DNA of 64,000 nucleotides from Rhodobacter ferrooxidans (GTDB taxonomy: Bacteria; Pseudomonadota; Alphaproteobacteria; Rhodobacterales; Rhodobacteraceae): NCBI RefSeq assembly GCF_000176015.1, contig NZ_ACYY01000007.1, positions 100,991 to 164,990 on the forward strand. The letters run 5' to 3'. The position numbers and the translations under genes were made by a program. Of the stretch, positions 30,148 to 30,559 are shown in pieces (position 1 is the stretch's first letter; each line of letters opens with the position of its first letter). Below the pieces are notes generated by a model that saw only the letters and a list, made by a program, of their open reading frames with translations, made no database searches and was not told the origin of the DNA.

Positions 30148-30528
30148 TCAGCCCTCTGGTGCCGCCTCGGGCTGCAACAAGCGGTCCAGCAGCGGCGACA
30201 GATCCTCGATCACCTCGGCCACCACATGTACCACGCCCGCCTCGCGCTGCAACCGCCCGGTCACCCGCAGCAACCGCCCCGAGATCACCGCCCGGCGGAA
30301 CTTCTCGTAAACCTGCGCCCAGACCACCACGTTGCAGACCGCGGTCTCGTCCTCCAGCGTCAGAAAGATCACCCCCTTGGCGGTGCCGGGCCGCTGGCGC
30401 ACCAGCACCAACCCGGCCACACAAACCCGCGCCCCCACCGGCGGCTCGTCCAGCCGGATGTGCGGCAGCGCCGCGGGCGGGCGCGGCCAGGTGTTCGGCA
30501 CCGGGGTCTGGGTCATCCAGTCGGCCAT
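30148..30528 (-). CDS. orphan OB-fold protein matching the DnaE2 C-terminus
   Basis: A 126-residue protein. Residues 18-110 closely resemble the C-terminal OB-fold of the error-prone polymerase DnaE2: VGARVCVAGLVLVRQRPGTA, then KGVIFLTLEDETAVCNVVVW, RRAVISGRLLRVTGRLQR and VVHVVAEVI. The rest of DnaE2 (PHP and polymerase domains) is absent, and sequence upstream of the ATG is not DnaE2-like. The start has a very good ribosome-binding site (AGGGAGGGAAC) and lies 17 bases from a perfect alphaproteobacterial LexA box. It is either a functional small single-strand-DNA-binding or accessory protein under SOS control, or the scar of a large deletion in an imuAB-dnaE2 cassette that kept promoter and tail. 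No imuA or imuB is seen. Confidence 0.75.
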   Translation of the reverse strand: MADWMTQTPVPNTWPRPPAALPHIRLDEPPVGARVCVAGLVLVRQRPGTAKGVIFLTLEDETAVCNVVVWAQVYEKFRRAVISGRLLRVTGRLQREAGVVHVVAEVIEDLSPLLDRLLQPEAAPEG

Positions 30529-30544
30529 GTTCCCTCCCTGACGT

Positions 30545-30559
30545 GAACAAATATAGAAC
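30545..30559 (-). promoter_or_regulatory. LexA (SOS) box, GTTC-N7-GTTC
   Basis: On the minus strand the sequence reads GTTCTATATTTGTTC, an exact direct repeat with seven bases between, which is the LexA operator form known in alphaproteobacteria including Rhodobacter. It lies 17 bases upstream of the OB-fold gene and probably overlaps its -10 region. Confidence 0.75.

Follow-up and report, generated by a model that had tools for sequence, protein, structure and literature searches.

The stretch of Rhodobacter ferrooxidans DNA analysed here (64,000 nucleotides of contig NZ_ACYY01000007.1, positions 100,991 to 164,990 of the forward strand; hereafter the window) encodes a protein of 126 residues that, judging from its sequence, is the detached C-terminal OB domain of the error-prone DNA polymerase DnaE2. 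A DnaE2 core lacking this domain is encoded on another contig of the same genome, and we find it quite probable that the two products work as one two-subunit DnaE2 enzyme. We read this enzyme as the product of a gene fission, likely in an ancestor of the lineage. The genomic facts, i.e., the split itself, the co-occurrence of the halves, the conserved LexA-type box of the OB gene, the selection acting on it, and the single group formed by each half in phylogenies, are strong.

The OB gene matches positions 947-1040 of the 1,047 positions of the NCBIfam family PRK05672.1 (error-prone DNA polymerase; E 2.8e-30), and its product matches the Pfam OB fold PF01336 with 48.4 bits (cut-off 27). A first reading of the letters of the window (the sequence-only reading) had proposed this DnaE2 origin and described a 126-residue gene with a ribosome-binding site, and both were borne out. 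The Pfam profile of single-strand DNA-binding proteins (SSB) gives 16.6 bits, below its curated cut-off of 26. In VIA-align, OB folds of tRNA synthetases and of the archaeal PolD came out at similar Z, so that a fold match alone cannot assign the family; a sequence search of the PDB with the OB protein gave nothing significant (best E 0.12). The stand-alone proteins also have a clade-specific N-terminal segment, made of WPRPP (residues 14-18) and what follows, which is absent from fused enzymes. Their names in databases vary between DNA polymerase III alpha subunit, single-strand DNA-binding protein, OB-fold protein, and hypothetical, so that the polymerase may well pass for a truncated one in surveys that miss its other half. 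The 4886 similar-sized proteins found at E up to 0.001 were not used as a count of stand-alone genes, because the size limit also lets in fragments at contig ends.

A search of this strain's genome (59 contigs, 3.5 Mb, completeness of 99.7%) with the DnaE2 family gave three places: contig C59 carries the core and C46 a weaker match, taken by us for DnaE1, and the third is the OB piece of the window, which covers positions 948-1040 in this search. The C59 core covers positions 4-940 of PRK05672.1 with 1216.7 bits, above the cut-off of 939. Its open reading frame of 929 residues stops at the domain boundary, shortly past the part that comes ahead of OB in relatives. OB and core are not in one polypeptide, as the core frame stops at residue 929 and OB lies on another contig. 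The sequence-only reading held that the OB fold was an orphan and that no polymerase remains at this site. The latter holds for the site and does not extend to the genome, and the gene is no orphan, since an OB-less DnaE2 of this length with its own box is encoded in the same genome. That box, an exact GTTC-N7-GTTC, lies 11 nt before the ATG of the C59 core (L002:4293-4307). The box of an ImuB-like gene on contig C58 touches the start codon, on the opposite strand (L066:2667-2681). The OB gene, the OB-less core, and the ImuB-like gene thus lie on three different contigs, each behind an exact box. Directly upstream of lexA there is another such box, again on the opposite strand. PMC3323433 gives GTTC-N7-GTTC as the alphaproteobacterial motif. 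Unlike in fused-type relatives, imuB and dnaE2 no longer form an operon in this genome.

We used a sample of 292 genomes of the order, with queries for OB and for the core, and compared the resulting lists. An OB match is present in 285 of the 292; the OB frame was listed for 150 genomes, and 135 more have an unlisted match. Among the matches listed, the OB frame has 125-506 residues in 102 genomes and at least 1089 in the other 48. Among these same matches, a stand-alone OB gene accompanies an OB-less DnaE2 in 100 of the 292 genomes (about a third), the OB gene occurs alone in two (G094 and G129), and the core occurs alone in one (G265). This last genome also lacks an orthologue of the ferredoxin gene that flanks OB (best match 43% identity), which makes an assembly gap likely. 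The stand-alone gene that the sequence-only reading suggested looking for in relatives is found in 102 genomes among the matches listed. Neither a stand-alone OB nor an OB-less core was found in 189 genomes, partly by exclusion: 80 of the 135 unlisted genomes were re-searched and had their best OB match in frames of at least 711 residues (over 1000 in 78 of them, none stand-alone), 13 others were read by script and are fused, and the other 42 were counted here by exclusion. In fused-type relatives the OB domain is carried within the polymerase. We defined split cores as matches of the core query with at least 68% identity, minus G227 and G110, which were shown to be fused; the end of the core was checked by script in 25 of the 101 cores, and for the others the lack of a fused OB rests on each genome having a single OB match. 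The exceptions, G011 and G184, show a second match that was not viewed.

Every frame at the 80 OB loci of named genomes is shorter than 600 residues; their genera include Gemmobacter, Rhodovulum, Ruegeria, Roseovarius, Roseivivax, Tropicimonas, Shimia, Mameliella, and Planktomarina. Among the matches listed for a sample of the class (385 genomes), most of those outside the family are in frames of more than 1000 residues, and 11 are in shorter ones. In seven of these, a contig start is at most 1.5 kb away (G580, G473, G518, G361, G449, G577, and G670); the other four are in G485, G350, G389, and G588. The G588 frame (183 residues; C1:3792794-3793090), outside the family and away from a contig start, holds a DnaE2-type OB and is a possible independent split or frameshift. 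An ImuB-like match occurs in all 27 split-group genomes searched for it, counting G094, G265, and G129 (the latter with its split-type copy in pieces). Six genomes without a DnaE2-level match also have no ImuB or OB match. They say little on the split pair because four belong to genera that are otherwise fused-type in the sample, a fifth comes from a mixed genus, and the sixth is the only one of its kind.

The phylogenies separate the two forms for each half. In the OB tree (unrooted, 91 columns, without the G129 row), 24 stand-alone sequences lie on one side of a branch and 23 fused OBs on the other (support 100/99). The 25 split cores are likewise on one side of a branch in the unrooted core tree (SH-aLRT 100). 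The stand-alone gene also keeps its place: its neighbours are a divergent ferredoxin gene, which adjoins it in 75 of the 80 named loci, and, at the loci that have kept them, degP, hflC, hflK, and a small gene of lipoprotein-like type. The 24 fused-type ferredoxin loci that we analysed (L134-L136, L138-L158) hold no OB and no exact box, and in 18 of them the lipoprotein-like gene lies within 1.5 kb on either side. The OB gene with its box thus appeared at a site where those relatives have neither. In 20 fused-type dnaE2 loci, the order is box, imuB, and dnaE2 with OB, and the fused copy of G129 has the same order; in G227 and G110, the fused dnaE2 has a box to itself, and no imuB was found in the stretch examined.

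Selection was assessed with the ratio of nonsynonymous to synonymous substitution rates (dN/dS), using a simple counting method under which one OB pair was saturated and gave no value and another was nearly so. The OB pairs have values of 0.03-0.32 (0.18-0.32 if the gene of the window is one of the two) and the core pairs of 0.07-0.26, both well under 1. Pairwise distances, computed on related species and thus no proof of contact, correlate between OB and core with r of 0.69 in 23 genomes and of 0.81-0.87 where degP, hflC, or hflK is present (11-12 genomes). The correlations of OB with its neighbours are weaker (0.16 for the ferredoxin, 0.54-0.57 for degP, hflC, and hflK). Given the neighbour, the partial correlation between OB and core is 0.68-0.81; given the core, that between OB and neighbour is -0.10 to 0.03. 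OB also tracks ImuB (0.61, 18 genomes).

The perfect GTTC-N7-GTTC repeat noted upstream of the gene by the sequence-only reading is indeed exact, 16 bases from the ATG, and conserved across loci. It was found in 29 of the 30 homologous OB loci from the genome search, in 23 of the 24 OB loci windowed on the start codon (mean of 0.08 in base shuffles), and ahead of the OB gene in 79 of the 80 named loci; these three sets share species. The bare pattern matches three times in the window, where 1.15 matches are expected from shuffles (at least three in 10 of 100 shuffles). It is therefore common by chance, and only its positional conservation counts as evidence; the conserved position across loci led us to reject a chance box at the OB gene. 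Among the first 30 OB loci, only that of G156 (L104) lacks an exact box, and two-mismatch sites are all that its scanned upstream stretch contains. At split dnaE2 promoters, the box is exact in 8 of 25 cases and has at most one mismatch in 22 (shuffle mean 2.0); among the remaining three, G052 and G283 gain such a box with an earlier start and G133 has none. A genome-wide search for the pattern GTTCYNNNNTYGTTC gave seven sites, including those of OB, imuB, and dnaE2, and the backward control gave five. This count is not independent evidence, given this control and because the pattern was drawn from those three sites. The four further sites (L190-L193) have no firm assignment.

We then tabulated the promoters of 80 loci, i.e., the 79 box-bearing named loci and this window. 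A -10-like hexamer with at least four of six matches to TATAAT is present in 64 of the 80, and a TTG lies at 16 or 17 bp from the -10-like hexamer inside the box spacer in 66. The first in-frame ATG, GTG, or TTG comes 1-3 nt past the box in 75 loci; the window, which departs from this along with four other loci, has 16 nt there and a clear ribosome-binding site. This arrangement predicts that LexA occludes the promoter and that the transcript starts at or near the start codon, giving a leaderless mRNA in most relatives. The features of the locus, including two flanking genes outside the system, are given in the table.

Table. Features of the OB locus, in coordinates of the window.
Feature	Position	Strand	Basis
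Stand-alone OB-fold gene, 126 residues, ATG start	30148..30528	-	Open reading frame and domain matches
Ribosome-binding site AGGGAGGG, ahead of the ATG of the OB gene	30532..30539	-	Sequence
LexA-type box GTTCTATATTTGTTC, exact GTTC-N7-GTTC, same strand as the OB gene	30545..30559	-	Pattern match and conservation
Predicted -10 element TATATT, within the box spacer	30550..30555	-	Sequence
Predicted -35 element TTGCCC, 16 bp from the -10 element	30572..30577	-	Sequence
Divergent 2Fe-2S ferredoxin gene, conserved neighbour, outside the system	30658..30981	+	Synteny; name read from sequence
Predicted lipoprotein or peptidoglycan-binding-like gene, other flank, outside the system	29542..30063	-	Synteny; name read from sequence

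In the mechanism that we favour, the error-prone DnaE2 would have been split into two genes in an ancestor of the lineage. LexA would bind the boxes of OB, core, and imuB, and its inactivation upon DNA damage would switch OB and core on together. The OB product would then rejoin the OB-less polymerase in trans, docking on the core or on ImuB, and would bind the single-stranded template. The enzyme would need it for lesion bypass, and OB and core would together form a translesion enzyme with ImuB. The earlier suggestion of a polymerase-accessory protein made under DNA damage is supported as a prediction.

Several observations weigh against a two-subunit enzyme. The main one is the persistence of OB in two genomes, which leaves room for an independent role. 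G094 has OB and ImuB-like genes and a core match at the level of DnaE1 only (33% identity). G129 keeps an intact OB, whereas its split-type core lacks about residues 389-809 and its split-type ImuB is broken (L289, C12:303000-313500); it also holds a complete fused imuB-dnaE2 operon elsewhere. OB thus outlives its partner in both genomes, which fits an independent function. The partial correlation between OB and core drops to 0.35 given ImuB (18 genomes). A 16-residue tail (HPREQAKRLFPSRDFH and near variants, ending in SRDFH) closes 22 of 23 fused DnaE2s of the order (L071-L073, L114-L133), and a tail with this ending is found in none of 25 stand-alone OBs and none of 25 split cores, so that cutting the fused enzyme in two would not by itself give the split one. 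The model of a fused DnaE2 is poor around the OB junction (block means of 26-46 at about 841-930). Finally, the exact box is missing at one of the 30 loci (L007, in G156) and at one of the 80 (L238).

Two side observations concern these subjects. The G094 genome (L067, L290) is given as 100% complete in 7 contigs and has exact boxes at its OB and ImuB-like genes. Some split-core tails (L082, L084, L079, L091, L093, and L076) show, by eye, a loose R...(D/E).W motif past a variable linker.

The alternatives differ in what they make of these data. The sequence-only reading allowed for a deletion scar, in which the promoter of the mutagenesis cassette was fused to the tail of a lost dnaE2 that now drifts neutrally, possibly with a complete dnaE2 at this site in relatives. 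The match of the gene to the last part of the polymerase only would fit such a scar. However, the low dN/dS, the gene, box, and position kept across many genera, the fused-type ferredoxin loci with neither OB nor box, and the polymerase core elsewhere in the genome leave it practically no chance, and we rejected it. The OB might instead have left the polymerase to become an independent SOS-induced binder of single-strand DNA, acting with DnaE1, RecA, or repair proteins. Its persistence in G094 without DnaE2 and in G129 beside a broken split core speaks for this, as does the conserved N-terminal segment that fused enzymes lack. We nevertheless regard it as improbable: of the 102 genomes that have a stand-alone OB among the matches listed, 100 also have an OB-less core, OB co-diverges with the core and not with its neighbours, the SSB match is under the cut-off, and no stand-alone OB was seen in the 11 genomes with a fused DnaE2 in four mostly split genera (g22, g24, g8, and g2; the G235 frame was not viewed). 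These four are the mixed genera that we tallied, with genus codes read by eye, and further genera hold both types.

The separate promoters of OB and core would also fit a role of OB as an inhibitor or timing switch, which would bind the core or ImuB and alter processivity or end bypass, the core working alone. The exact box is more frequent at OB (23/24) than at the core (8/25) in split genomes, even if both are exact in this genome, and C-family enzymes can exist without OB, as DnaE2s and DnaE3s lacking it are reported in the text seen of PMC3919608. Yet, according to the same text, OB was detected for no fewer than 97% of C-family polymerases, and its retention in trans here suggests a positive role, so that we hold an inhibitor to be rather unlikely. 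A variant of the two-subunit enzyme deserves a tentative mention, although we doubt it: a two-subunit SOS mutase of Rhodobacterales in which OB is a separately timed switch, released only under strong damage. The LexA operator of the mostly leaderless OB gene would enclose the -10 element and touch the start codon, the core would be under a weaker operator in most split relatives, and the enzyme would become processive and mutagenic only once OB arrives. If this were true, a single protein of some 126 residues would determine the stress mutation rate (both boxes being exact in the genome studied here).

The fused form may have replaced the split one in some genomes. Besides the 11 fused-type genomes of the four mostly split genera, G129 is a twelfth with a fused copy, next to the remains of its split form. 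A search of plasmid records shows that fused DnaE2 enzymes occur on plasmids of the order, as described for D. shibae in a part of PMC9426580, and this would allow such a replacement. Carriage of the OB gene itself by plasmids was rejected: among the best 15 of 824 matching records, the match falls on an annotated error-prone DNA polymerase in 14, and one record is unannotated. The second OB match of G075 was also discarded, as it is part of a second, broken fused DnaE2. This remnant (L288, C1:3741000-3746000) has a piece of the core followed by an OB that is about 39% identical, and a complete fused copy is present elsewhere in the genome.

The two-subunit DnaE2 may provide the missing piece for OB-less DnaE2 enzymes already in print. 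It also offers a natural experiment on the role of OB in a translesion polymerase, since one can delete, titrate, or exchange the domain and leave the polymerase gene as it is. The presence of core, OB, and ImuB at three loci with their own LexA-type boxes in this genome would allow their separate timing.

No DnaE2 with a separately encoded OB was found in the titles and abstracts listed by searches of an open-access library. A 2026 survey of bacterial polymerases describes DnaE2-based modules (PMC12926913); in the portion available, its main text does not use the terms OB-fold, OB domain, or fission, and OB appears as a figure label. The passages seen of PMC10883770, PMC6473078, and PMC3323433 treat imuB, dnaE2, or LexA in the group and do not mention a separate OB. 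Compared with the fused DnaE2 of relatives, the split OB is 55-68% identical to fused OBs and the core 58-69% to fused cores, and both systems have an ImuB-like gene in the same genome and GTTC-N7-GTTC boxes. They differ in that OB is here a separate, distant gene, that core, OB, and imuB each have their own box, that the SRDFH-ending tail is lacking, and that the OB has the WPRPP segment. The protein resembles bacterial SSB in its OB fold and in its predicted binding of single-strand DNA, and differs from it by its score below the SSB cut-off and its DnaE2-type sequence. Several DnaE2 sequences without an OB domain were reported by Timinskas et al. (PMC3919608), who, in the sections seen, mention no OB from another gene, whereas here one was found, with its own box and phylogeny. 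The same sections mention cyanobacterial C-family polymerases split by an intein. We noticed no long intein-like extension at the short termini of the split parts, where no search aimed at inteins was made. Both cases yield one C-family polymerase from two pieces; in contrast to the cyanobacterial replicase, the polymerase described here is of the DnaE2 type and is cut at a domain boundary.
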